The notes beneath the pieces are model-generated. The model did no database searches. It had not been told where the DNA came from and worked only from the letters and a program-made list of their open reading frames with translations. From a virus: a DNA stretch of 30,282 nucleotides. The stretch is from the IMG/VR virus record IMGVR_UViG_3300023174_003828, positions 1-30,282 of that record; one strand, given 5' to 3'. Of the stretch, positions 6,674 to 29,358 are shown piece after piece. Both the position numbers and the translations under genes were made by a program. Every line of letters starts with the position of its first letter. The stretch's first letter is position 1.

Positions 6674-6883
6674 TTAACGTCGGCGCACGATACGGCCTTT
6701 AGTTAAGTCATATGGACTAAATTCTAATTCTACTGTATCCCCAAGTAGAACTTTAATATCATGCTGGCGCATCTTGCCAGAGATATAACCCATTACATTT
6801 GTGCCATTTACGGTGACACGGAACATGGCGTTAGGCAACACATCAGTTACCGTACCGTCCATTCGTAAACCTTCTTCTTTCAA
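6674..6883 (-). CDS. infA: Translation initiation factor IF-1
   Basis: 69 residues matching bacterial IF-1 (usually 71-73) along its full length: the S1-like OB fold with [39 protein letters not shown]-1 binds the 30S A site and helps IF-2 and IF-3 choose the initiator tRNA. The start is TTG at 6883, supported by AAGGAAAC at proper spacing; the first ATG (6862) would cut off conserved N-terminal residues. The TTG overlaps the stop of GIY-YIG gene I (TTGA), whose last codons contain the infA ribosome site. An IF-1 in a phage is uncommon, though translation factors are known from very large phages. It may steer initiation towards phage mRNAs. Confidence 0.95.
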
Positions 6884-7746
6884 TTTTGTTTCCTTTTTTT
6901 ACCTTCTTTAGAATTGTGAAAGACCCAGTCTTTCTGTTCATCTGAACCCAGTTGTGAATAAAAAATTTCTTTTTCTATTTTTTTAATTTCACCTATTTTA
7001 TTAATACATACAATTTTACCTTTTAGTTTTTCTTTAGTTTCAGCAGTAAACACTTGAAGTTTTCTTTTATCTTTTATTTTTTGTTTAGTTTCATCTTTCA
7101 TTGGTCCTTTATTTTGTTGGGCCAATTTCATTTTTTCAATGGTTTCGGGTGTTTTTTTCTTACCTAAAAGTTTTTCACTTATTTCAGGTCTTTTTCTACC
7201 TCTTAGTTTTTCAGCAGTTTTTTTGACTGATTCTGGGTTTCTTTTTTTCCCGATGTTGGCTTCTGATAGTAGTTTCTTTGTGGCATCGCTTCTTGGCAAT
7301 TTATTTCCGGGATTAACACCCTTTTTTCCTGTATTCCAAGGTAGTTGACCTTGTTTAGATGAAGATATTTTTTGTTTTGTTTCTTCTGTGTGAGGTTCAT
7401 AATTATTTCTACCAGTATCACCACCGTCTAAACCATTTTCTAATACTTGATTAGCCCAAATCTTTTTACCACTTTCATTTATAGCATTTACAATATTGTT
7501 TTCTTTTGAAAAGTTTACAGCAACTTCTACGCATTTTTCTTTATTTTCAAAAAAACCTATTATTTCAGTAGATATATCCTTGCCATGAATTTTTAAGTGG
7601 TTTAACCAATATTCACCTGACCCAGTATAAGAATAAGGATTAGATTTGACAGTTTTTCCAAAATATTTTAAACCGGTAATGTTATGCGTTTTAATATAAA
7701 GATAGGTAGGCATAAATTTCTTCATTAATATATTTATGCCTACCAT
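6880..7746 (-). CDS. GIY-YIG homing endonuclease I with NUMOD3 repeats
   Basis: Residues about 13-105 form a GIY-YIG-type nuclease domain (YLYIKTHN then KYFGKT). Residues about 118-245 are a Lys-rich string of NUMOD3-type DNA-binding units with TKQKIS, GKKR, PESVKK and KTPETIEKM motifs, as in free-standing phage homing enzymes. The N-terminal domain is nearly the same as that of GIY-YIG II (23493-24161), showing recent duplication or shared descent. Starts are ambiguous: ATG 7746 has GGAAA upstream, while ATG 7725 and ATG 7713 lie inside a 13-bp hairpin. The 3' end overlaps infA by TTGA, as expected of a mobile gene inserted between upstream genes and infA. It probably cleaves a related phage genome at the insertion site. 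Confidence 0.88.
7705..7744 (-). promoter_or_regulatory. 13-bp hairpin and late-promoter motif at GIY-YIG I start
   Basis: On the minus strand GGTAGGCATAAAT and ATTTATGCCTACC are perfect 13-bp inverted arms around a 14-base loop. CATAAATA (7738-7731) fits NATAAATA and straddles the 5' arm and loop. ATG 7713 lies in the 3' arm and ATG 7725 in the loop. A late transcript starting about 7 bases after the motif would lack the 5' arm. This is the arrangement known for the T4 I-TevI gene; here it is inferred from sequence. Confidence 0.65.
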
Positions 7747-10842: not shown

Positions 10843-11325
10843 ATGAAAAGAGGTATAGCAATAAGTACCCTGACGATGCTCACTATATCAGCCTTTGCGG
10901 CTGAATTACAGCATCAGTTTAATAGCCCTAGCTTCAGTGGTTCAGGATATAGTAGCCATGTCCTAACACTAAAACAGTTAGAAGATTTACAAAAAGACAA
11001 AAATAAAGCACTTGCAGACACATTAAAAGCAAAAGCTGAAAGTGAAGCACTAAACACCCCTCAAGCTAAGTTTTTAGCTAACTTAGAATCAAGAATTTAT
11101 AGTCAATTGGCAAAGCAATTGACTGATAGTATGTTTGGTGAAGGATCAACATGCACTACAAAGGGCGTTATTTGTGGATCTATACCTGATTTAGGTGGCA
11201 ATAGTATCACTTGGAAATTAGGTGATGGTAGTGATAATGGATTAATTATTATCACAATTACAAACAATGGCAATCCTTCACAAGTAACTATAATGAAAGT
11301 ACCAGCTGGAACATTTTATTTCTAA
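10843..11325 (+). CDS. csgF: Curli assembly factor CsgF
   Basis: 160 residues with a Sec signal peptide (cleavage near Ala19-Ala20, SAFAA|E). The mature start ELQHQFNSPSFSGSG matches the conserved 'FQFRNPNFGG' N-terminus of CsgF, the part that inserts into the CsgG pore in E. coli. The middle 'LESRIYSQLAKQL' helix and the C-terminal strand region (LIIITITNNGNPSQVTIMKVP) also fit; the protein is slightly longer than E. coli CsgF (138). In bacteria CsgF forms the outer ring of the secretion channel and couples nucleator to polymer growth. Its stop and the csgG start overlap as TAATG. GGAG before the ATG fixes the start. It is the first gene of the plus-strand block. Confidence 0.92.
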   Translation: MKRGIAISTLTMLTISAFAAELQHQFNSPSFSGSGYSSHVLTLKQLEDLQKDKNKALADTLKAKAESEALNTPQAKFLANLESRIYSQLAKQLTDSMFGEGSTCTTKGVICGSIPDLGGNSITWKLGDGSDNGLIIITITNNGNPSQVTIMKVPAGTFYF

Positions 11326-12326
11326 TGAATAAACTACTAATATTATCATTTGTTGTTATGTTATCAGGTTGTGCTTTAAGTAGCAAAACTAACAGTCTAG
11401 TTACAGGTGAACAATTTGATGAACCTATAGTTGAACAGAATGTTTATATGAAAAAGGACGATAATAAATTACGTCCTCCGGCTGATGGTCCAATTGCAAT
11501 TGCAGTATATGGATTTGCTGATAAGACCGGGCAACGTAAAAGCATTCAAAATATTGCTAGTTTAAGTTCAGCAGTAACTCAAGGTGCTGAAAGTTATCTA
11601 ATCAAAGCATTACAGGACGTAGGTGATGCTAAATGGTTTATTGTATTAGAACGTGTTGGATTAGAAAATATAATTAAAGAACGACAGATGATACGTCAAG
11701 CACGTGAGCTATATCAAGGTCGTGATGCCAAACCTTTACCACCAATGGTATTCGCCGGAGTATTAGTTGAAGGTGGTATTATTGGATATGATAGTAATAC
11801 ATTGACGGGCGGATCCGGAGTAAGATTATTAGGTATAGGAACAAGTACACAATATCAAAGTGATACAGTAACCGTCAATTTACGAACAGTAAGTGTTAGT
11901 ACCGGTGAAGTATTAACCAGTGTAACCGTTACAAAAACCGTATTAAGTTATATGGACAAAGTAGGTGTATTGCGTTTTAAGGCAGAAGGCACAAGTAGCG
12001 TTGAAGCTGAAACTGGTGCTAGTATTAATGAGAGTATTAATAAAGCCACAAGTATAGCTATACAAGCGGCAGTTATAGATACAATACGTGAAGGCGCTAG
12101 AAAAGGACATTGGAATTTTAAACAAGAGGAGAAAAAAAATGAGTTGGTTCAAGAGAAAACCCCACCTAAAGACACCCCCAAAATTACAACCGCACCATCT
12201 AAGCCCAATATCGGAAAAACTATTGAAGGAAACGAAAAAAGAAGTTTCTGGAGTAAAATCAAAGATGAAATTACAAGATTCACAATTGAGCATAGTGACG
12301 GAAAAGAAGAAGAATTAACAGATTAA
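11325..12326 (+). CDS. csgG: Curli secretion channel lipoprotein CsgG
   Basis: 333 residues. A lipoprotein signal with lipobox LSGC (Cys16) indicates acylation and outer-membrane insertion. The CsgG domain spans about 55-265 with IAIAVYGFADKTGQRK, FIVLERVGLENIIKERQ, GVLVEGGIIGYDSN and TVTVNLRTVSVSTGEVL, all family landmarks. CsgG forms a nonameric beta-barrel pore that exports curli subunits. The last about 65 residues are a Lys/Pro/Glu-rich extension not present in E. coli CsgG, probably periplasmic and disordered. It is coupled to csgF by a one-base overlap. Finding the export pore and CsgF together with two curlin-repeat proteins makes a functional amyloid export system likely. Confidence 0.95.
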   Translation: MNKLLILSFVVMLSGCALSSKTNSLVTGEQFDEPIVEQNVYMKKDDNKLRPPADGPIAIAVYGFADKTGQRKSIQNIASLSSAVTQGAESYLIKALQDVGDAKWFIVLERVGLENIIKERQMIRQARELYQGRDAKPLPPMVFAGVLVEGGIIGYDSNTLTGGSGVRLLGIGTSTQYQSDTVTVNLRTVSVSTGEVLTSVTVTKTVLSYMDKVGVLRFKAEGTSSVEAETGASINESINKATSIAIQAAVIDTIREGARKGHWNFKQEEKKNELVQEKTPPKDTPKITTAPSKPNIGKTIEGNEKRSFWSKIKDEITRFTIEHSDGKEEELTD

Positions 12327-12438: not shown

Positions 12439-13206
12439 ATGAAGCATTATAAAAATTATAAGACGGTGCTTTCAATATTAGCATTATCATTGCTAAGTGT
12501 AACTAGTATGGCACAGGTATTAAATACCGCAACAGGGCCAAATAAAGTTTATATTGAACAAATTGGTAACACTAATACTATTACACTTGAACAAACAGGT
12601 GGTACTAATAATATTGGAGGTGTAGCCAACGTTACCCCCAGCAATACAAACTATGCCACAATAACCGGCAATAGTAACGTTGTTGCTATGGTTCAAAAAG
12701 GTGATAACAACTTAGGTCAATATAATATTAGAGGTAACAATAACGAATATACAAGTACTGTTACTGGAAATAATAACAAAACTAAGTTAACTGTCGGTGA
12801 TGCCCAAAACACAAATAACCTACGTAACATTATTACTGAAACCATTACTGGTAATGACAATACTGTTATTCAAAATATTATTGGCAACGATATATTAAGT
12901 ACATTAACTATTACAGGTGACACCAATGAAGTTACTAAGGATCTAAAAAGCACTAACGGTAGAAGTGACATTAGTATCACCGGTGATAATAACAAACTTG
13001 ACATTGAACAAAATGATGCTAGTGGTGCGAACGGTCATAATTTGAAAAAAGTTATTCAAGGTAACACTAATAGCATTGTAACTCAACAGCAAGGTACTAA
13101 TGATACTACTATTGATATTAAAGCCAATGGTGACAATAATACCATTACAGTTCGTACAACAAGCGCGGCTACCATTGCAAACCCAAGAACAGCAGTAGCA
13201 AGATAA
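12439..13206 (+). CDS. Curlin-repeat amyloid subunit 1 (CsgA/CsgB-like)
   Basis: 255 residues: Sec signal peptide to about residue 25 (SVTSMAQ), then a serial beta-solenoid-like sequence with repeats of about 22-25 residues rich in Asn, Thr, Gly, Ile and Gln (YIEQIGNTNTITLEQTG, GDNNLGQYNI, GNNNKTKLTV, GDNNTITV). The Q-x-G-x-x-N pattern is the curlin signature. The mature N-terminus VYIEQIGN is shared with subunit 2 (14463-14930). It is preceded by the export genes csgF and csgG, so it is the likely major exported fibre subunit. Translation starts after an unusual hairpin-separated ribosome site. It is about 100 residues longer than E. coli CsgA. Confidence 0.85.
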   Translation: MKHYKNYKTVLSILALSLLSVTSMAQVLNTATGPNKVYIEQIGNTNTITLEQTGGTNNIGGVANVTPSNTNYATITGNSNVVAMVQKGDNNLGQYNIRGNNNEYTSTVTGNNNKTKLTVGDAQNTNNLRNIITETITGNDNTVIQNIIGNDILSTLTITGDTNEVTKDLKSTNGRSDISITGDNNKLDIEQNDASGANGHNLKKVIQGNTNSIVTQQQGTNDTTIDIKANGDNNTITVRTTSAATIANPRTAVAR

Positions 13207-13207
13207 A

Positions 13208-14296
13208 ATGCGTAAGTTTGTGTTGTTCTTATGCTTGTTTACAAGTATTAGTACTTGGGCAAGTATAGGAAATGTATCAGAATTAACCGGGGCAGCCGGC
13301 GAAATATCCCGCGGTAAACAAAAAGTTGTGGGTAATAAAGGCGCCGGCATTGAAAGCAACGATATATACACTACTAGAAACGGCACAGTACAATTAGCCT
13401 TTAAGGATGATACAAAAGTAAAAATTACAGAAAACAGTCGTCTACTAATAGATGATTTTGTTTTTGACCCTAACAAAAGTGATGCAGGTAGATTAGCACT
13501 TAAAGTTGGTATGGGAACAGTACGTTATGCTAGTGGACAAATAGCAAAAACAAACACACAACAAGTAGCAATTAAAACACCAACTGCAACTATTGCAGTT
13601 CGTGGTACAGATTTTACAATGACAGTTGATGAAGCAGGACAGTCATTAATAGTTTTAGTTCCAAGTTGTAAAGACAATGAAAAAGTAAAAGATTACGAAT
13701 TAGAAGAAAACAAATGTAGAGTAGGACGCATTGAAGTAGAGACCTTAGTTGGTAAAGTTATATTGGACCAAGCATTTCATGGTACATTTGTAGCAAGTAA
13801 TAACATTTCACCTACCACACCGGTCGTTATGAATACAATTGAAGCAAAACTAACAAACAACTTGATTATTGTAAAGCCAATGGAGATTGTTAAAGCAGTT
13901 AATAATCAAAATGGTAAAAGTAAAAAAGAACAACAAGAACTAGAAGAAGAACAAAACAATAGATTAACCAACATAGTTAAAAAACAAAGTGTTGAAGAAC
14001 AAGCAAAGATTATTGCCGCTAATAGTTTTAAACCCGATCCAAACTGTAATGCAACAACTACTGTTTGTATCTTATGGGAAAAAAGTGACGGTGAATTATT
14101 AGCTAGAGGTAGAGCTATAGCGTATCGTAATAGTGAAAACGAACATTATGCTGAAGTTAAAACACAGGGTTATATGTCAAACACACTAGTTACCATTGTA
14201 CACAATGACACCATAGCATCAGAACTTTTAGGTGATGGTCAGCCCGGTGGAAATATAGTGTATATCAAACAAACTGCGGGATTAAAAAGAAGATGA
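13208..14296 (+). CDS. Secreted FecR-domain protein
   Basis: 362 residues with a Sec signal peptide (cleavage near residue 18, STWAS). Residues about 20-160 form a FecR domain (TGAAGEISRGKQ, GTVQLAFKDDTKVKITENS, IAVRGTDFTMTVD). A Lys/Glu/Gln-rich coiled region (about 235-270) and a C-terminal beta domain follow. Stand-alone secreted FecR proteins are often found beside CHASE2-cyclase genes in bacteria, and one is present in this operon. It starts one codon after the curlin gene and ends in an ATGA overlap with a 57-aa gene. Its job is unknown; periplasmic or surface binding linked to curli or to the cyclase sensor is inferred. Confidence 0.85.
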   Translation: MRKFVLFLCLFTSISTWASIGNVSELTGAAGEISRGKQKVVGNKGAGIESNDIYTTRNGTVQLAFKDDTKVKITENSRLLIDDFVFDPNKSDAGRLALKVGMGTVRYASGQIAKTNTQQVAIKTPTATIAVRGTDFTMTVDEAGQSLIVLVPSCKDNEKVKDYELEENKCRVGRIEVETLVGKVILDQAFHGTFVASNNISPTTPVVMNTIEAKLTNNLIIVKPMEIVKAVNNQNGKSKKEQQELEEEQNNRLTNIVKKQSVEEQAKIIAANSFKPDPNCNATTTVCILWEKSDGELLARGRAIAYRNSENEHYAEVKTQGYMSNTLVTIVHNDTIASELLGDGQPGGNIVYIKQTAGLKRR

Positions 14297-14466
14297 CTAG
14301 TAAAGAGTTACAAATAATGTACCAACAATGGTGCCAGGGAAATGAGGATCACGGATTTCGTTGGTTAGACTTTGTTGAAATGGCAGCAAGACAATTCAAA
14401 CATCCAGAAAGTGAAGTACTTAGAGAGTTACAGAAACATTATTGGTTCGTTAAAAATAACAAATGA
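14293..14466 (+). CDS. 57-aa unrecognised cytoplasmic protein in the amyloid operon
   Basis: A short reading frame joined to both neighbours by ATGA overlaps (start over the FecR stop at 14293, stop over the next ATG at 14463), strong evidence that it is translated. The protein is helical with FRWLDFVEMAARQF and EVLRELQKHYWFVK, and has no signal peptide or membrane helix, unlike all its neighbours up to this point. I do not recognise the family. It may be a cytoplasmic chaperone or regulator for curlin export, or only a passenger. Confidence 0.75.
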   Translation: MTSKELQIMYQQWCQGNEDHGFRWLDFVEMAARQFKHPESEVLRELQKHYWFVKNNK

Positions 14467-14930
14467 AAAAGATACTACTATCATTATTATTTTCTAGTTC
14501 AGCATTTTCTCAAGTGTATATTGAGCAAATAGGTAACTTCAATGTTGTTAATGTAGAACAGATTGGTAACGGAATCAACTATATTAACTACTATAGTGCT
14601 GGCTCTAATAATAATGTAACCATGGAACAGCGTAGCACCGGTGGCAATAAATCAATACAAGCTACTGTAAACAATAGTAACAACACAGTTCTGTTACAAC
14701 AAAAAGACAACGGAAATCATTCTATCATATTAAACTTAGTTGGTGGACATAAAGATGTAGACATATTACAGCAGGGAAGTGCTGGACATCAAGCAAATGT
14801 AACATTGACCGGATTACCATCTGGTATAAGTTTAAGTCAAAGTGGATCTACCCAGCAATTATACTCATTAACCTTTAACTGTGCTATACAGGGTGGATGT
14901 GCCAAATTGTCAGTACAACAGGGCCAATAG
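14463..14930 (+). CDS. Curlin-repeat amyloid subunit 2 (CsgB/CsgA-like)
   Basis: 155 residues: signal peptide to about residue 16 (SSSAFSQ), then VYIEQIGNFNVVNVEQIGNG and further Gln/Asn/Gly repeats of about 22 residues (NNNVTMEQ, NNTVLLQQKDNG, KDVDILQQGSAG). The size and repeat number are close to E. coli CsgA and CsgB (151). The C-terminus has a cysteine pair (FNCAIQGGCAKL) that could form a disulfide. With the larger curlin protein upstream this gives a two-subunit set; which one nucleates and which polymerises cannot be told. Start ATG overlaps the 57-aa gene stop. Confidence 0.85.
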   Translation: MKKILLSLLFSSSAFSQVYIEQIGNFNVVNVEQIGNGINYINYYSAGSNNNVTMEQRSTGGNKSIQATVNNSNNTVLLQQKDNGNHSIILNLVGGHKDVDILQQGSAGHQANVTLTGLPSGISLSQSGSTQQLYSLTFNCAIQGGCAKLSVQQGQ

Positions 14931-14979: not shown

Positions 14980-16026
14980 ATGCAAATAGGAAGCGGAATA
15001 ACATTTACTAGTGGCCTTACTTTAACTGCACCCCCAACAGCACCATCGGCACCTACAATAGGTACAGCAACAGCTACCGGTGCAACAACAGCAACAGTGA
15101 CCTTCACTGCTCCTGTTAATAATGGCGGTGCAACAATTACAAGCTATACAGCAACAAGTAGTCCTGGTAGTATTACTGGTACACTAAGTCAAGCCGGATC
15201 CGGAACAATCACTGTTTCTGGATTAACTGCGAGTACAAGTTATACATTTACAGTAACTGCTACTAATAGTGTGGGTACAAGTAGTGCAAGTAGCGCAAGT
15301 AATAGCATTACAACAGAAAGTGCGGCAGTAGGACAACAAGAATTTACTACAACAGGAACATTTTCATTTACAGTCCCTGCAGGGGTGTCGTCTATATGCG
15401 CTGTACTAGTTGGTGGAAGAGGTACTAGTCAAAACGGCGGAGCCAAGGGAGGCAGAGGTGGAGCAGGACTACGATATATCAATAACTTAGCAGTTATACC
15501 CGGTGATGTATATACAGTGGTAGTGGCAGGCGCGGGTGGCAATTCGTCTTTAAGTAAAGGGGGCAATACTTACGTGCAAGCAAACTCCGGCGGCAGTAGT
15601 GGGGCAGGTGGTACCGGAACTGCTTTTGGAGCTGGTCCTTTTGGTGGTACAATAGGTGGTGGTAATGGCGGAGCTGGAGGGCCAGCGCCAGGAACTGGTT
15701 TTGCTGCCACTGGAGGAGCCGGAGGGTATTCAGGTGACGGAGGGTATGGTGGTGGCGGTGGACAAGATGGCGGAGCCGGATCCGGAGGAGCCGGAGGTGG
15801 TGGCGGTGGTTCAAGTCTTAACACTGTTGGACCGGGCAATGGAGGATTAGTGGGCATTTATGGACAAGGTGCTAGTGGTGCCGGTGGTACTGGTGGTGGT
15901 GCGCCTACATCAGGTGGTGCTGGATCTGGTGGTGGCTTTGGTGGATTCCCGGGTGGTGACGGAGCAGTTCGTATTATTTGGGGATCAGGTCGTGCCTTCC
16001 CATCAACTAACACCGGTAATTTATAA
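14980..16026 (+). CDS. Fibronectin-III plus glycine-rich fibre/adhesin-like protein
   Basis: 348 residues without a signal peptide. Residues about 20-112 form one fibronectin type III domain (PTAPSAPTIGTATATG, ASTSYTFTVTATNSVG). A short beta segment (GTFSFTVPAGVSSICAVLVGG) leads into a glycine-rich region (about 145-340) with GGAGG, GGGGG and GAGG runs, as in phage fibre and adhesin proteins that may pack as polyglycine-II helices. Because it lacks an export signal while the curli proteins have one, it is more likely a virion component than a curli part. A late-promoter motif just upstream supports separate late expression. The ribosome site is AAGGAAAGAATAAA. Confidence 0.75.
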   Translation: MQIGSGITFTSGLTLTAPPTAPSAPTIGTATATGATTATVTFTAPVNNGGATITSYTATSSPGSITGTLSQAGSGTITVSGLTASTSYTFTVTATNSVGTSSASSASNSITTESAAVGQQEFTTTGTFSFTVPAGVSSICAVLVGGRGTSQNGGAKGGRGGAGLRYINNLAVIPGDVYTVVVAGAGGNSSLSKGGNTYVQANSGGSSGAGGTGTAFGAGPFGGTIGGGNGGAGGPAPGTGFAATGGAGGYSGDGGYGGGGGQDGGAGSGGAGGGGGGSSLNTVGPGNGGLVGIYGQGASGAGGTGGGAPTSGGAGSGGGFGGFPGGDGAVRIIWGSGRAFPSTNTGNL

Positions 16027-16035
16027 ACTATTTGT

Positions 16036-18087
16036 ATGATTAAAAAAATAATTCTCAGTCCTTGGACAGCACTACTAACACTAGTGCTGATTCTTTCTGT
16101 GCGTATCGCAGATCCTCAATTCGTAGAATCAGTTCGTTTACGTTATTTTGATACTCTTATCACTAATAAAACCCCAACAGAAAACAACATCTATACAGTA
16201 AATATAGATGAAGCAACACTAGACAAGTATGGTCAATGGCCACTACCTCGTAATGAATACGCAAAAATAATAGAAGATTTATATAAGCGCAACGCTGGTC
16301 TTGTTGTGTTCAATGTACTAATGCCTGATACTGATAGAAACGGTCAAGACAGTAAGTTAGCAAATACAATGAAACAGTATCCTGTTATTCTTCCCAATGT
16401 ACCTAGCGATAAAACAAAAAACACTCCACGTAATCCAGGTGCGGCTGTACTAGCCCCTGAGTGGCTAGATCAAATAGTTCAATATCCCGGTATCATTGCT
16501 AACGTGCCTTTATTAGAAAACAGTGCGTATGGTGTAGGTACTGTTAATACATTACCAGAGATTGATGGTGTCAATAGACGTATACCATTGATTGTCAGTG
16601 TTGATGGTAAACTCTATCCAAGTTTAAGTATGGAAGTATTAAGAGTAGCCGCAGATGATACAACATTCCAAGTTAAACTAAGCGAGAATGGTGTAGAGAA
16701 AATGCGTATACCAAAGTTCGGTCCTATTACTACTGACAACTTAGGACGTATTTGGATTGATTACAGTCAACAAAGTAAATCAGTAAGTTTGATGGATCTA
16801 CCAAAAGACTTCGGTGGTGCTATTGTTATTGTAGGTTTAACAGCAAGTGGATTAAACAACCCAGTACCAACAAGTAAAGGTAGTGTATGGCCGCATGATG
16901 TTCAAGCAAGTGTAATAGGTACAATGTTTAACAAAGTTGTTATTGTAAGACCTGATTATGCAGATGGTGTAGAACTTATCGCTATACTAGTGTTAGGTTT
17001 ATTAGTTATATTTTTATCAAGGTGGACATATGCTTTTATCCCAGTTATTCTTGTTCTTACTTCTGGTCATTTTATTGCGTCATATCTATTCACATCCAAT
17101 CTATGGCTCTATGATATTACCGCCCCTATTATTGGCGTTGGTTTGGTTTATCTTCACGCTTATACTGTTAAGTTTGTAAGTGAATTCTTACAAAAGCAAC
17201 AGATTAAAAAACAGTTTGGTAGTTACGTTAATCCAACAATCGTTGAACGACTACAGAAAGATCCTAGTCTAATTAAACTTGGTGGTGAGAAACGTGAATT
17301 ATCTATCGTTATGACTGACTTGCGTGGCTTCACTAGCTTGGGCGAATCATTTGGCGATGATGTTGAAGGACTAACACAGATTATGAATGACTACATGACT
17401 GCACTAAGTGTTCCTGTATTGAAGAACGATGGTACATTAATTAAGTTTATTGGTGATGCAAGTTTGCATGTCCATGGCGCCCCATTAGATGATGTTAAAC
17501 ATGCGGTAACTGCTGTTAATACCGCTATGCAAATGATTGATGCTATTGAAGAATTCAATAAAGAGTTGACAGCTAATGGTCGTCCACCAGTTGGTATGGG
17601 CGCAGGTGTTAATACTGGTGAAACGTTGATTGGTAACATTGGTGCTAAGACTAAGTTTGGTTATGATGTATTAGGCGACAGTGTTTCTACTGCGGCTAGA
17701 TTAGAAGGACAAACTAAAGGATATGGTGTATTATGTATCATTGGCCCTAATACTAATGAACAGGTTAAAGATGAAATATTTACACTAGAACTAGATTGTA
17801 TTGCTGTAAAGGGTAAAACAATAGGATTAAATATCTTTACCCCATTAAAGACTGATCCAAATAGTATGGCGGAATATCTATCAGCACGTGAGATACATGA
17901 TTTGATGATAGATTACTACCGTGAGCAGAAATGGGACCAAGCATTACATATGATAGACCAACTTAAGGGTGAATTTGATTCGCATATGGACCACTATTAT
18001 GATATAATGATAGAACGAATAGGAGAACTACGTGAAAGCAATTTACCTAACGATTGGGATGGTGTGTATAGGGCTACTAGTAAGTAA
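16036..18087 (+). CDS. CHASE2-domain membrane adenylate cyclase (class III)
   Basis: 683 residues. One N-terminal membrane helix (about 8-22), an extracytoplasmic CHASE2 sensor (about 28-300; IDEATLDKYGQWPLPRNEY and IVGLTASGL are typical), two or three membrane helices (about 312-378), a linker, then a class III cyclase domain (about 420-605). Metal residues Asp428 and Asp474 and ATP-selecting Lys470 and Asp544 are present. Arg555 of the transition-state pair is kept, but its usual Asn partner is Ser551 (GDSVSTAARLE), which may lower activity. It would make cAMP in the cytoplasm in response to a periplasmic signal, perhaps with the FecR-type protein upstream. A membrane cyclase in a phage-like context is very unusual. 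Confidence 0.92.
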   Translation: MIKKIILSPWTALLTLVLILSVRIADPQFVESVRLRYFDTLITNKTPTENNIYTVNIDEATLDKYGQWPLPRNEYAKIIEDLYKRNAGLVVFNVLMPDTDRNGQDSKLANTMKQYPVILPNVPSDKTKNTPRNPGAAVLAPEWLDQIVQYPGIIANVPLLENSAYGVGTVNTLPEIDGVNRRIPLIVSVDGKLYPSLSMEVLRVAADDTTFQVKLSENGVEKMRIPKFGPITTDNLGRIWIDYSQQSKSVSLMDLPKDFGGAIVIVGLTASGLNNPVPTSKGSVWPHDVQASVIGTMFNKVVIVRPDYADGVELIAILVLGLLVIFLSRWTYAFIPVILVLTSGHFIASYLFTSNLWLYDITAPIIGVGLVYLHAYTVKFVSEFLQKQQIKKQFGSYVNPTIVERLQKDPSLIKLGGEKRELSIVMTDLRGFTSLGESFGDDVEGLTQIMNDYMTALSVPVLKNDGTLIKFIGDASLHVHGAPLDDVKHAVTAVNTAMQMIDAIEEFNKELTANGRPPVGMGAGVNTGETLIGNIGAKTKFGYDVLGDSVSTAARLEGQTKGYGVLCIIGPNTNEQVKDEIFTLELDCIAVKGKTIGLNIFTPLKTDPNSMAEYLSAREIHDLMIDYYREQKWDQALHMIDQLKGEFDSHMDHYYDIMIERIGELRESNLPNDWDGVYRATSK

Positions 18088-18358
18088 CTCCTACTCACAG
18101 GAAATGAAGGACAAGGTTGAAATAGAGTTACCTTGTTATGATTCAACTGCGTTATTCAAAACATTAAGAGAAAATCACAAAGAGATGCCCATAATGATGG
18201 GTAAAGCTAGTGATGATGTTAAGTCTATAGTCAGTATTTGGATAAATCCAATTGATAACAATTGGACTATAATAGCAACTAAAAATGATCTATCATGTGT
18301 TGTAGGATTGGGGAACGACATGAAACTCGTACCCTATAAGAAAGGACCTAATATATGA
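18032..18358 (+). CDS. Small secreted protein, unrecognised
   Basis: 108 residues starting at GTG 18032, supported by AGGAG six bases upstream, so the gene overlaps the cyclase end by 56 bases in another frame. The N-terminus is a signal peptide (AIYLTIGMVCIGLLVSNSYS|Q). The mature part is about 85 residues with two cysteines (Cys in ELPCYDS and DLSCVVG) that could pair, and the segment IVSIWINPIDNNWTIIATKN. This looks like a small periplasmic protein; no family is recognised. It is joined to the downstream peptidase by ATGA. A role as ligand or modulator of the CHASE2 cyclase or of the peptidase is speculation from position. Confidence 0.72.
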   Translation: MKAIYLTIGMVCIGLLVSNSYSQEMKDKVEIELPCYDSTALFKTLRENHKEMPIMMGKASDDVKSIVSIWINPIDNNWTIIATKNDLSCVVGLGNDMKLVPYKKGPNI

Positions 18359-19089
18359 TTAAAAAACTAATAGCAATATTATCATTGTCTATCTGTTCAG
18401 CATATGCAGATACACCATTAACTGCACAAGCCTGGTTAGTAGCTGATAATAATGGGAAGATTCTTGAAGGGTCTAATACTACTGAGATTCGTAGCATAGC
18501 AAGTATTACTAAATTAATGACAGCAATGGTTGTATTAGATAGTGGTCAATCATTAACTGAAATACTTCCTAAAAAGCTATACAATAAACAATTAAGTAGA
18601 GAAACATTAATTGATTTGGCGATTGTAAAAAGTGATAATAATGCCGCAAAATTGTTATGTGATTATTATCCCGGTGGATATAAAAATTGCATAGAAGCGA
18701 TGAATGCCAAAGCAATATCATTGCAGATGGGTAACAGTAATTTTACTGATCCTACTGGTAGATATCATACTAATGTAAGTACTGCACAAGATTTAATCAA
18801 ATTAGTATTGGCAGCCAGCACCTACCCATTAATTGTTCACGCAAGTAATATGGATGCTGTACGTTGGAGTATTAATAAGAAGAAAAATATAGAATTTAGA
18901 AACACAAACAGTTTAGTTGGTAATGGTTATAAATTCTTAGTAAGTAAAACAGGTTTTATCAATAAAGCAGGTGGATGTATTGTAATGATGATTGATACTG
19001 CAAATGGAATCAGGACCGTAGTCCTGTTGGGTTCAAAGAATACTAAAACACGTATCCCAGAAGCAAAGATGTTATCTATGCTTTATTAA
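18355..19089 (+). CDS. pbpG: PBP7-like D-alanyl-D-alanine endopeptidase (S11 family)
   Basis: 244 residues: signal peptide (to about residue 18, SAYAD), then a serine DD-peptidase domain with all three motifs: Ser50-Ile-Thr-Lys53 (SxxK), Ser93-Asp-Asn95 (SxN) and Lys198-Thr-Gly200 (KTG). The segment YYPGGYKNCIEAMNAKA matches E. coli PBP7 (PbpG) more than PBP5/6, and it lacks the long C-terminal anchor region of those. PBP7 cuts D-Ala-mDAP cross-links in the periplasm. Here it could open the wall for the curli channel, aid lysis or remodel the envelope after infection. It is the last gene of the plus block; its stop overlaps the convergent minus gene. Confidence 0.9.
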   Translation: MIKKLIAILSLSICSAYADTPLTAQAWLVADNNGKILEGSNTTEIRSIASITKLMTAMVVLDSGQSLTEILPKKLYNKQLSRETLIDLAIVKSDNNAAKLLCDYYPGGYKNCIEAMNAKAISLQMGNSNFTDPTGRYHTNVSTAQDLIKLVLAASTYPLIVHASNMDAVRWSINKKKNIEFRNTNSLVGNGYKFLVSKTGFINKAGGCIVMMIDTANGIRTVVLLGSKNTKTRIPEAKMLSMLY

Positions 19090-23413: not shown

Positions 23414-23492
23414 TATCTTTTGGTCACCTAGTTTAATTTAGATATCCAAAAACTTCGTATATATTGTGCATGTGTCCGTGTTAAATATTAAC

Positions 23493-24161
23493 ATGTTTAA
23501 ACCTACCTACTTATATATTAAAACACATAATATCACTGGACTAAAATACTTTGGTAAGACAACAAAGGACCCGCAGAAATATGATGGTTCAGGAATTAAG
23601 TGGCTTAATCACTTAAACGTACACGGAAAAGATGTAAAAACAGATATCCTAGGATATTATACGGATAAGGAAGAATGTTTAAGAATTGCATTAGAGTTCA
23701 GCCACAAAAATAATATAGTAGAATCATCAAATTGGGCAAATTTGCGAGTTGAATCATTGGATGGCGGAGACACAAGTAATACTGAAAATTTTAAAAATTG
23801 GATACCTAGACTAATACAAGAAAACAAAAAAAGACGATGGTGGAATAATGGAGTTTCTCAGGTCTTTGTTGACGTACCACCCGATGATAACTTTTTAAAA
23901 GGTAGATTACCTTTTAATAACTTAGGTGCAAAAAAAGGTTCTGCTATGCAAAAAGGAAAAATTTGGGTAAATAATGGTATTACTGAGTATATGACAGATA
24001 CCGAAGTATCTACAGGATTTTTAAAAGGTAGGTTAAAAGAAAAGGCGTTTAATAGACAGCAAGGCCTACACACTGTAGGAACCAAATGGTGGAATAATGG
24101 AATGAAATCAACTATGGCAAAAGAGTGTCCTGGTCCTGAGTGGACTCTGGGTAGACTTTAA
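23493..24161 (+). CDS. GIY-YIG homing endonuclease II with WWNNG repeats
   Basis: 222 residues from ATG 23493; the frame can be extended to GTG 23466 but without support. Residues 4-92 are a GIY-YIG-type domain ([30 protein letters not shown]) almost identical in key blocks to GIY-YIG I at 6880. The C-terminal half differs completely: three units beginning W(W/V)NNG and ending in (F/W)LKGRL or WTLGRL at about 116-140, 158-181 and 199-222, in place of NUMOD3. They probably bind DNA. The gene is oriented against its neighbours and its stop overlaps the metallophosphatase stop, as expected for a recent insertion. A short TGTTAA/TTAACA hairpin covers the start. Confidence 0.85.
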   Translation: MFKPTYLYIKTHNITGLKYFGKTTKDPQKYDGSGIKWLNHLNVHGKDVKTDILGYYTDKEECLRIALEFSHKNNIVESSNWANLRVESLDGGDTSNTENFKNWIPRLIQENKKRRWWNNGVSQVFVDVPPDDNFLKGRLPFNNLGAKKGSAMQKGKIWVNNGITEYMTDTEVSTGFLKGRLKEKAFNRQQGLHTVGTKWWNNGMKSTMAKECPGPEWTLGRL

Positions 24162-25060
24162 TCTCTTGTCCAATTCACACCATCAAACTTGTTTGGCAAG
24201 TTATCTAAATCAATGTATCGTAGTTTAAATGTGGCAGCATTTGGATCAGCTCCCAAATAACCTCGCGGATTACATACTACATATGTATCACCTATGTAAT
24301 AACTATGTGGGTCATGCATATGGCCTAATGTCCATAATTTTATTTGTGGATGATCTAAAATGAATTCACTTAATTCACTATGATAACCACCGTTCATTAC
24401 ATAATGAACATTATGTTTATATCTGTCATGTGTACTCATTGCACTAGGTGCATGATGTCCTACAAATACAACTTTTTTATCCTTCATATCAGCTAACACT
24501 TGTTTCAAATAACTTAATGTTTGTTGATGACGGTGTACAGTATGTGCTGGACGTAACTTGGTATATCCATGCTCATCATTACGAATTACCCGATAATCAT
24601 TCATCATATCAGCTAATGCATGTAATGTTAGTGGATCGCCTTTATTACAATCGGTCCACAATGTAGCACCGATAAAGGACACTTCATTGATTACCTTGAT
24701 ATCGTTTTCTAGGAAGTAAACATTACTGAATTTGGCACATTCTTCACGCAAGTAGTCAAGACTAGCCTTCCACTTACCATGATAGAATTCATGGTTGCCT
24801 GCAACATAAACAACATGTGGAAACTGAAAACTTACACGTTTTAAGAAGTCACGGAAACGTAGTGCCACTTGTTGCCTACGACCCAAGTCAGCAAGATTCA
24901 CACTGGAATACATTCCATAATTCATTTCTGGATGATTATGTAAATCTTCGGCAATCATAATGTCGCCGGACAGGATAAGAACCTCAGCACCTTCGGTGTT
25001 CTTAAGGTTGATATCTTCAAACTCTAAATGTAAATCCGAGCAAATTGCAATCTTAGGCAT
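24158..25060 (-). CDS. Calcineurin-like metallophosphoesterase
   Basis: 300 residues with all motifs of the two-metal phosphoesterase fold: Asp9-x-His11 (SDLHLE), Gly32-Asp33 (SGDI), Gly-Asn89-His90-Glu91, His202-His203 (VGHHAPS) and Gly-His247-Met-His249. It hydrolyses phosphate mono- or diesters with Mn2+/Fe; the size and motifs fit small phage and bacterial phosphatases rather than Mre11/SbcD, as no nuclease partner is present. It has its own strong promoter (25082-25110) that overlaps the start of GIY-YIG III. Substrate unknown. Confidence 0.88.
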   Translation of the reverse strand: MPKIAICSDLHLEFEDINLKNTEGAEVLILSGDIMIAEDLHNHPEMNYGMYSSVNLADLGRRQQVALRFRDFLKRVSFQFPHVVYVAGNHEFYHGKWKASLDYLREECAKFSNVYFLENDIKVINEVSFIGATLWTDCNKGDPLTLHALADMMNDYRVIRNDEHGYTKLRPAHTVHRHQQTLSYLKQVLADMKDKKVVFVGHHAPSAMSTHDRYKHNVHYVMNGGYHSELSEFILDHPQIKLWTLGHMHDPHSYYIGDTYVVCNPRGYLGADPNAATFKLRYIDLDNLPNKFDGVNWTRD

Positions 25061-25081: not shown

Positions 25082-25110
25082 ATTTTAACACAGGAATAAA
25101 TTTATGTCAA
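25082..25110 (-). promoter_or_regulatory. Strong sigma70-type promoter of the metallophosphatase
   Basis: The minus strand reads TTGACA (25110-25105), 17 bases, TAAAAT (25087-25082). Expected start near 25075, some 15 bases before ATG 25060. The -35 box overlaps the first codons of the divergent GIY-YIG III gene. Confidence 0.75.
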
Positions 25111-25796
25111 TCTATTGTGTATATCTAACTATATATATGGGTAAAAAGTTACCCATGTTTTATATTGGATCTTCTACCTTAACCAAAATTAAGAATGGAT
25201 ATAGGGGGTCTGTATCTAGTAAAAATTATGGTAAAATTTGGAAAGAAGAATTGAAAAATAACCCTGAATTATTTAAAACAAAAATAATATCATTACATGA
25301 TTCTAGGGAACAAGCATTTGATAAAGAAGAAAAACTACAAAAAATATTAAATGTAGTTAAAAACTCATTATACATAAACAAATCATTTGCCAATTCTAAA
25401 TTTAGTTTGAAACAGCATTCGGCTTGGACAAGGGATAAGTTTAAAACTAGGGTGCCATGGAACAAAGGAAAAACTGATATTTACTCTGATACCACATTAG
25501 AGAAAATGAGTTTTTCTAAAAAAGGTAAATCAAGGCCATGCAGTGATGAAACTAAAATAAAATTAAGTGGACCAAACCCAGCAAAAGCAAATGTTGGTGA
25601 AAAAAATGGTATGTTCAACAAAACTCACACTGATGTAGTTAAAAATAAATTAGGGGCAGAAGCCTCTAAGAGGTTCAAAGGTAAATCATATGAAGAATTA
25701 TATGGTCCTGAAAAGGCGGCTGAACTAAAAAAAATAAGGTCTGAGAGAATGAAAGAGATTAGGAAAAATAAAAAGGATATTTTATTACTTTCATAA
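25104..25796 (+). CDS. GIY-YIG homing endonuclease III with NUMOD3 repeats
   Basis: 230 residues. The nuclease domain (about 3-95) has YCVYL and FYIGSST as the GIY and YIG blocks and the acidic helix FDKEEKLQ. It is followed by NUMOD3-type units (VPWNKGKTD, SDETKIKLSG, NGMFNKTHTDVVKNKL) and a terminal SYEELYGPEKAAELKKIRSER helix common in phage homing enzymes. It is only distantly related to GIY-YIG I and II. Start ATG 25104 has AGGA at 8 bases. Plus orientation between minus genes, with overlapping stops at its 3' end, indicates an inserted mobile gene. An 8-bp hairpin occurs early in the coding region (25137-25156). Confidence 0.88.
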   Translation: MSIYCVYLTIYMGKKLPMFYIGSSTLTKIKNGYRGSVSSKNYGKIWKEELKNNPELFKTKIISLHDSREQAFDKEEKLQKILNVVKNSLYINKSFANSKFSLKQHSAWTRDKFKTRVPWNKGKTDIYSDTTLEKMSFSKKGKSRPCSDETKIKLSGPNPAKANVGEKNGMFNKTHTDVVKNKLGAEASKRFKGKSYEELYGPEKAAELKKIRSERMKEIRKNKKDILLLS

Positions 25797-28703: not shown

Positions 28704-28763
28704 GTCCTTTATTTAACTGTCTAAGATTGTATTATAGACCCAAAATGATTTATTGTCAAATTT
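28704..28763 (-). promoter_or_regulatory. Repeated promoter/leader, copy 4
   Basis: The minus strand has TTGACA (28759-28754), 17 bases, TATAAT (28736-28731), and the same leader with AAAGGACTC. Slightly more diverged in the spacer than copies 1-3. The clpP stop lies at its upstream edge. Confidence 0.9.
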
Positions 28764-29358
28764 AGGACATGTTGCGTTTTTGCAACACACTATCAGCTAG
28801 GCCATACGCCACTGCCTCATTTGCACTCATAAAAAAGTCACGTTCCATGTCTTTTGCAAGTTCCTCAAACGTCTTTCCGGCACTATTGTGGTCAACATAG
28901 ATTTGTGTTAGAGATTTTTTCATAGCCAAAATCTCTTTAACTTGAATTTCCATATCAGTAGCTTGACCACGTGCTCCACCACTTGGTTGATGAATCATAT
29001 GTCGTGCATTGGGAAGGATCATTCGTTTGCCTTTTGCACCTGCTTGACCTAACAAACTACCCATTGAACAAGCTTGACCCATTACAATAGTTTGTACATC
29101 TGGTTTAATAAATTGCATACAATCATAGATTGCCATACCAGCTGTTACTGAGCCACCTGGACTATTGATATAGATACTGATGTCCTTATCTGAATCTTCA
29201 CTTTCCAAATATAGTAGTTGAGCAACGATTAGATTTGCCATTTGGTCATGTACCTCACCTTCAAGCAAAATAACACGGTCACGTAGTAAACGACTGTAAA
29301 TGTCATAACTACGTTCGCCTTTACTTGTTTGTTCTAATACCATTGGGACTAAGCTCAT
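28762..29358 (-). CDS. clpP: ClpP-type ATP-dependent protease subunit
   Basis: 198 residues, full bacterial ClpP length. Catalytic triad: Ser98 (GQACSMGS), His123 (MIHQPSGG) and Asp170 (KDMERDFF). [16 protein letters not shown] and GLADSVL are family blocks. N-terminal residues lack an obvious propeptide. ClpP rings degrade proteins fed by ClpX or ClpA, so the phage subunit would work with host unfoldases or form mixed rings; no unfoldase gene is in the window. Start 29358 has AAGGAAACAAT upstream. Its likely promoter lies in the first codons of the divergent gene. Confidence 0.94.

Follow-up and report, generated by a model that had tools for sequence, protein, structure and literature searches.

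The cyclase gene and its neighbours

The aquatic bacterial virus of record IMGVR_UViG_3300023174_003828, whose 30,282 bases constitute the window studied here, carries on its plus strand an open reading frame of 683 aa with an ATG start (16036..18087), which the first-pass annotation had described as a CHASE2 class III phage cyclase; the reading frame and the Pfam domains bear this out. The CHASE2 sensor domain (residues 15-323, 16078..17004; Pfam PF05226, E 9e-40), predicted to be extracytoplasmic, lies N-terminal to the cyclase domain and is accompanied by hydrophobic stretches at residues 1-19 and 307-340, the arrangement that defines a CHASE2 sensor cyclase. Pfam recognizes Guanylate_cyc at residues 420-594 (E 3.4e-17). 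The catalytic core (residues 400-604, 17233..17847) is of the D544/S551/HxH type discussed below and is the part that is swapped among phages; it is followed by a helical C-terminal tail (residues 605-683, 17848..18084) with a conserved DWDG at its end in the alignment consensus. Over its full length the protein matches phrog_35576, a family of unknown function (E 6.9e-226), and a search of NCBIfam gave no name for it. The AlphaFold2 model has a mean pLDDT of 87 and a pTM of 0.62, and its predicted catalytic domain is matched by Foldseek to CyaB (3r5g) with a TM score of 0.89 by target length.

Upstream of the cyclase there are, all on the plus strand and in this order, a CsgF-like protein (10843..11325; Pfam CsgF, E 1.1e-7; 40% identity with the CsgF of HTVC008M), the CsgG curli pore (11325..12326; Pfam CsgG, E 2.9e-51), a curlin-repeat protein (12439..13206; Pfam Curlin_rpt, E 3.9e-7), a FecR-domain protein (13208..14296; Pfam FecR, E 7.4e-11) with an N-terminal signal sequence apparent by eye, which is the candidate input partner of the cyclase, a second curlin-like protein (14463..14930) recognized by its repeat pattern and its position in the cassette, for which Pfam gave no match, and a Gly-rich protein with a fibronectin III domain (14980..16026; Pfam fn3, E 4.2e-9; phrog_4474, E 6.7e-40), which resembles tail-associated phage families and, less strongly, families of minor tail proteins. 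On the 3' side of the cyclase lies a D-alanyl-D-alanine endopeptidase-like protein (18355..19089, plus strand; Pfam Peptidase_S11, E 2.7e-36). With csgF, csgG, curlin and FecR genes in order beside the cyclase, the region is a phage curli (T8SS) cassette; the annotation of Methylophilales phage Melnitz gives the same order, ending with the cyclase, and Pelagibacter phage HTVC008M has it too. It had been proposed at first pass that the cyclase could act on host curli control; because the cyclase gene closes a phage curli-FecR cassette, the curli concerned are probably the phage's own.

A phage cluster that includes FecR and adenylate cyclase is named in the available text of PMC9599517. The main text of PMC9004378, as far as it is accessible, proposes that the pore acts in lysis and reports no visible clumping for Melnitz, while cyclase and FecR never occur in it; both are also unmentioned in the accessible part of PMC7029224, where the phage curli cluster was described earlier. 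On the curlin subunits of phages like HTVC008M (L083) and Melnitz (L082) these partial texts disagree: absent according to PMC9004378, not identified according to PMC7029224, and present according to PMC9599517, contrary to PMC9004378. The GenBank record of Melnitz-3 has two curlin-repeat proteins.

Elsewhere in the window, the openings of three reading frames (6880-7746, 23466-24161 and 25104-25796) resemble by eye those of GIY-YIG homing endonucleases, the first with a NUMOD3 motif, and a papain-family cysteine protease (607-1446; Peptidase_C1, E 1.5e-15) adjoins a repeat-rich protein of 1210 aa. A full-length ClpP-like protease (28762-29358, E 2.4e-81) is 70% identical to the ClpP of Sinorhizobium phage Phosso, and the ClpP comparison gave no kin informative for host assignment. 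Among phage isolates the only DNA kin was a match of 107 bases, to Pseudomonas phages.

Residues of the active site

Most of the residues by which a class III cyclase is recognized are in place, at the positions given in the first-pass annotation: metal-binding Asp428 (17317..17319; D in 342 of 345 aligned rows, with a gap, G or K in the remaining three), base-selecting Lys470 and metal-binding Asp474 at the two ends of codons 470-474 (17443..17457), base-selecting Asp544 (17665..17667) and transition-state Arg555 (17698..17700), all on the plus strand, so that the two metal Asp, the Lys/Asp pair of ATP type and the Arg are confirmed. The transition-state Asn is replaced by Ser551 (codon TCT, 17686..17688, plus strand). 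This replacement, the central claim at first pass, holds in alignments with class III cyclases of solved structure (2w01, 6fht, 3r5g, 1wc0 and 1wc1), whose Asn is in each case aligned with S551; the segment from D544 to R555 is free of gaps in all five, which rules out that the site has its Asn at another position. In the AlphaFold2 model S551 is close to the start of helix 548-563. The strand bearing Asp474 also bears His478 and His480 (codons 478-480, 17467..17475, plus strand), where the other types described below have Ala and Trp or Phe.

Cyclases of subclass IIIb have Thr or Ser at the base-selecting site. The window protein has D544 there, although its nearest bacterial relatives have T or S together with N at the site of Ser551.

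A linked signature in the D/S core

In the alignment of 345 sequences (window included, some contigs present twice) the residues at sites 470/544/551/555 are KDSR in 188 rows, KSNR in 88, plus one with X at 470, and KTNR in 60; eight rows, which are fragments, non-cyclases or too divergent, fit none of these three types, hereafter D/S, S/N and T/N. The association between sites 544 and 551 is complete: Ser551 occurs in 188 of 188 sequences with Asp544, among them that of the isolated phage Melnitz-3 (L082), and Thr or Ser at 544 in 149 of 149 with Asn551. No D/S row lacks Lys470 or Arg555, and the D/S rows without Asp428 or Asp474 are fragments. After 331 of the 345 rows were kept and clustered at 93% identity, 214 representatives remained (114 D/S, 60 S/N and 40 T/N, the last two groups including bacterial rows), and Ser551 was still found in 114 of 114 D/S representatives.

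Eight sites have a residue that is common to the 114 D/S representatives and nearly or wholly missing from the 100 others. Besides Ser551 these are Gly436 (114/114; in the others Ser 99, Thr 1), Pro460 (114/114), Ile469 (113/114; Asp in 100/100 others), Ser476 (111/114), His478 (114/114; Ala in 98/100 others), His480 (114/114; Trp in 95 and Phe in 5 of the others) and Asp544 (114/114); the two His occur together in 114/114 D/S and 0/100 other representatives. A check from a different angle used a DNA pattern that described only the HxH strand and was blind to sites 544 and 551; it found at least 120 stretches in viral contigs; 114 cyclase domains could be read at new loci, and among the matches listed the type was D/S in 111 of the 111 readable at both sites. 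Ser551 is thus, on comparative grounds, a member of a lineage-wide signature and appears coupled to Asp544, HxH478/480, I469, G436 and P460. Since the link between D544 and S551 is a single event on the core tree, its recurrence across rows reflects inheritance and is not independent proof of coupling.

The presence of two His, Ile469 and Gly436, all fixed near catalytic residues in the sequence, speaks for an alternative in which the remodelled site would alter the product or the rate, yielding another cyclic nucleotide or a low-rate, tightly controlled enzyme. We regard this alternative as unlikely, and return to it with the evidence from core exchange and from possible receivers of the signal.

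Distribution in phages and bacteria

The first-pass annotation had called a sensor cyclase very rare in phages. This stands for isolates, with 8 matching records in 50,697 (four Melnitz, two HTVC008M and two partial Acinetobacter records), but not for viral contigs, where a single scan gave 365 relatives, of which the best 80 were kept; further scans, whose sets overlap, contributed the best 80 of 484, the best 80 of 585 and the best 80 of 135. The phage curli clusters with adenylate cyclase in the available text of PMC9599517 also speak against rarity.

In bacteria, a scan of genome contigs gave 22 loci, and the 66 bacterial domains surveyed (64 loci) comprised 33 T/N, 27 S/N and 6 others or unreadable, mostly with A at 478 and W, F or Y at 480; neither S551 nor H478 was found in any of the 66. 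A DNA pattern spanning D to Arg matched with an Asn codon in 14 of 96 alphaproteobacterial genomes and with a Ser codon in none of 289. Neither this Ser-codon pattern nor the survey of 66 domains, therefore, found a bacterial source of the D/S core. As the bacterial relatives are of N type, the D/S type would most simply be derived, once, in phages. Three contigs of bacterial assemblies titled Rhodobacteraceae and Pirellulales do carry a D/S core (L084, 9.7 kb; L096, 36.5 kb; L092, 11.5 kb); they have curli cassettes of phage type and are probably phage contigs binned into bacterial MAGs.

Purifying selection on the core

Comparison of the window with four close relatives (L002-L005, of which L003 and L004 gave identical values) yielded dN/dS of 0.019-0.034 for the catalytic part and 0.061-0.083 for CHASE2, which makes the catalytic core the most constrained part of the cyclase. 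The Ser551 codons of the 188 rows are AGT (85), AGC (32), TCA (40), TCT (19), TCG (6) and TCC (6), that is AGY in 117 and TCN in 71. On the core tree of the 114 representatives parsimony requires the Ser codon to switch family 25 times, a count that may be inflated by recombination within the core; because such a switch needs a double change or an intermediate with another residue, these switches indicate that Ser itself is being kept. A sequencing error or decay behind Ser551 is ruled out by the Ser in all 188 D544 rows together with the strong purifying selection on the core.

These observations bear on the possibility of a pseudo-cyclase without catalytic activity, retained for its sensor or for scaffolding. 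The residue lost is reportedly essential in mammalian adenylyl cyclase (Yan et al. 1997, a title cited in PMC4215837). Against a pseudo-cyclase, the catalytic Lys and Arg are retained in all D/S rows and the tightest constraint in the protein falls on the core. A further argument against it is the activity of Ma1120, a cyclase that works without the Asn (PMC4215837, as far as its text is available). On balance we consider a dead enzyme improbable, the least probable of the explanations weighed here.

Exchange of catalytic cores behind one sensor

In a tree of the core built without sites 544 and 551 the D/S rows form one clade (support 1.0) and the catalytic type changes once, whereas the CHASE2 tree needs 21 changes. 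For a smaller set, consisting of 34 of the 72 qualifying D/S and 26 of the 35 qualifying T/N rows, the number of changes is 17 with the CHASE2 data and one with the core data; a single D/S clade is rejected by the CHASE2 data (log-likelihood difference 681, AU p 0.000119). The same result can be recognized in pairwise identities: where CHASE2 is 70-80% identical, median core identity is 84% within D/S (307 pairs) and 46% between D/S and T/N (151 pairs, maximum 59%). As an example, two loci (L023, of T/N type, and L051, of D/S type) are 84% identical in CHASE2 and 42% in the core; between the window and L010, CHASE2 is alike, the identity of the tail is 70-100% and that of most of the core 43-57%. 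These comparisons show that phages swap catalytic cores behind one sensor, and that the C-terminal tail evolves separately from the core.

The swapping of T/N and D/S cores behind the same sensor is what would be expected if the output of the enzyme mattered, and in this respect it agrees with an altered product or rate. It is possible, and we put it forward only tentatively, that the D544/S551/HxH core is one of the curli phages' own, exchanged with the Thr/Asn core so that a single FecR-reading sensor would be connected to differing products or kinetics. Whatever the output, these natural chimeras, with a sensor 84% identical and a core 42% identical, separate sensor from output.

Probable input to the sensor

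The association of FecR with CHASE2 extends beyond the window. In loci with at least 3.5 kb of upstream DNA a FecR gene is found in 132 of 151 D/S, 45 of 49 T/N and 36 of 39 S/N cases; it was not found in 19 of the 151 D/S loci. The FecR query from HTVC008M was a gene annotated as hypothetical before the last curli-like gene, chosen by position, and it recovered the Pfam-confirmed FecR of the bacterial locus L085. In 58 alphaproteobacterial genomes a FecR lies no more than 3 kb from 13 of 57 CHASE2 hits, against an expectation of 0.15 from density, with 11 of the 13 pairs on the same strand; the count used 57 of 59 CHASE2 places, two below the family cut-off having been dropped, and all 73 FecR places, and the CHASE2 proteins are not necessarily cyclases. 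FecR is directly upstream of the cyclase in four of five bacterial regions around high-ranking catalytic matches, and also of a CHASE2 cyclase on S. meliloti pSymB; the three bacterial FecR proteins that were scanned are large and contain TPR or cadherin parts. Finally, on a 705-kb contig of a Hyphomonas-titled MAG (L085:1942-8037), csgF, csgG, curlin, FecR and a CHASE2 cyclase stand in a row, flanked by FAA hydrolase and TonB receptor genes, so that the phage cassette has a bacterial counterpart.

Published work on bacteria, in the portions available, points in the same direction. In Campylobacterota CHASE2 cyclases cluster with FecR-domain outer-membrane proteins (PMC9239204); the S. meliloti CHASE2 cyclases CyaK, CyaD1 and CyaD2 depend on the outer-membrane receptor NsrA (PMC7529298), and CyaD1 without its CHASE2 is constitutive (PMC5498481); a Burkholderia biofilm operon combines FecR with a CHASE2 histidine kinase (PMC5192318). 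We infer that CHASE2 takes its input from the phage FecR and that what the module monitors is the secretion of the phage's curli. The D/S loci in which FecR was not found, and the lack of visible clumping reported for Melnitz, weigh against this. Tying the phage curli cassettes to the bacterial FecR-CHASE2 pair provides a likely input for the cassettes' otherwise unexplained cyclase.

Another explanation separates the cyclase from the curli cassette: it would raise host cAMP for metabolic takeover or counter a cyclic-nucleotide defence. The available texts of PMC9004378 and PMC9599517 describe hosts of related phages without curli genes, and in 6 of 32 T/N representatives with FecR (L023, L018, L026, L065, L130 and L131) the cyclase is opposite to FecR, still nearby. 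This is difficult to reconcile with the tendency of the cyclase to stay near FecR and csgG in all three catalytic types (csgG in 94 of 100, 11 of 12 and 19 of 20 loci whose upstream DNA was long enough), and with its presence in the bacterial curli operon of L085. We judge a role apart from curli quite unlikely, if less so than a dead enzyme.

Product, receiver and overall interpretation

The pair K470 and D544 favours ATP as the likely substrate: Lys with Asp is the ATP-selecting pair by the established rule, as given in the accessible text of PMC4215837, and this counts against an altered product. The same partial source describes Ma1120 of Mycobacterium avium, which keeps Lys, Asp and Arg, has Ala at the Asn site and is an active adenylyl cyclase; its A164N mutation lowered adenylyl cyclase activity and abolished guanylyl cyclase activity. 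The example of Ma1120 shows that Asp can work together with a residue other than Asn, and since Ma1120 loses activity with the Asn, a Ser-to-Asn change in the phage cyclase could well lower activity instead of raising it. The odd residue thereby becomes a testable case of a natural, strongly conserved re-tuning of a class III cyclase site.

Less expected is the scarcity of receivers for the signal. Each of 23 phage records has one Guanylate_cyc match and none has a cNMP-binding domain, which was found in one of eight host-type genomes, all from the genus of a Pelagibacter-titled MAG (genome completeness is not given). No cAMP receptor is therefore evident in the phages or in most of these genomes, which weighs against a cAMP signal. 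It agrees with an altered product or rate, and so does a similarity to Pycsar cyclases, although the PycC models of PADLOC gave weak matches only, the best of which (E 1.4e-11) seems no better than the general class III similarity seen with Guanylate_cyc; the cassette neighbours listed are of curli, FecR and peptidase families. A calcineurin-like phosphoesterase is also encoded in the window (24158-25060), whose similarity to the cAMP phosphodiesterase model NF008359 is weak and falls below the cut-off (E 3e-4); it could act on the product of the cyclase.

Taken with the directly observed gene, residues, linked signature, purifying selection, core exchange and cassette, these considerations lead us to infer that the phage cyclase is an active enzyme producing cAMP under the control of FecR. 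A secreted phage FecR-domain protein, from a cassette with a CsgF/CsgG pore and curlin-like fibres, would convey the state of the outer envelope; CHASE2 would read that state through the FecR-domain protein and relay the reading across the inner membrane to a class III catalytic dimer, which would convert ATP to cAMP with a core of a phage subtype in which the Asp at the base site, the Ser at the former Asn site and the HxH on the metal-Asp strand were presumably fixed together. We hold with moderate confidence, somewhat above even, that the protein is such an active inner-membrane adenylyl cyclase, FecR-gated and coupled to curli, and, as part of the same judgment, that Ser551 belongs to a re-tuned D/S/HxH site and is not damage.

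Comparison with known systems

Publications already cover cyclase-bearing phage curli cassettes, the pairing of FecR with CHASE2, and a class III cyclase that lacks the Asn; in the mainly open-access literature searched, neither the D/S/HxH core nor an exchange of cores was reported. The closest known system is the phage T8SS module of pelagiphages, HTVC008M and Melnitz in PMC9599517, with which the window shares the order csgF-csgG-curlin-FecR-curlin-cyclase; the window has in addition the Gly-rich fn3 protein and the D,D-endopeptidase beside the cyclase, and its catalytic type is that of Melnitz, unlike that of HTVC008M. Catalytic residues, core types and core exchange are not treated in the available part of that paper. 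The bacterial FecR-CHASE2 pairs (PMC9239204, PMC7529298, both in part) likewise combine a class III cyclase of CHASE2 type with a FecR gene that lies nearby or upstream, but the FecR proteins scanned are large and contain TPR or cadherin parts, and the cores are T/N or S/N.

With regard to the catalytic site, CyaB of Pseudomonas aeruginosa (3r5g), Cya2 (2w01) and CyaC (1wc0) share the fold (TM up to 0.89 by target length) and the site positions with the phage cyclase, but have Asn at the site of Ser551. Ma1120, in what is accessible of its description, is similar in keeping the Lys-Asp base pair and the Arg while naturally lacking the transition-state Asn; it differs in having Ala, not Ser, and its activity is measured, whereas the phage cyclase is known from its sequence.
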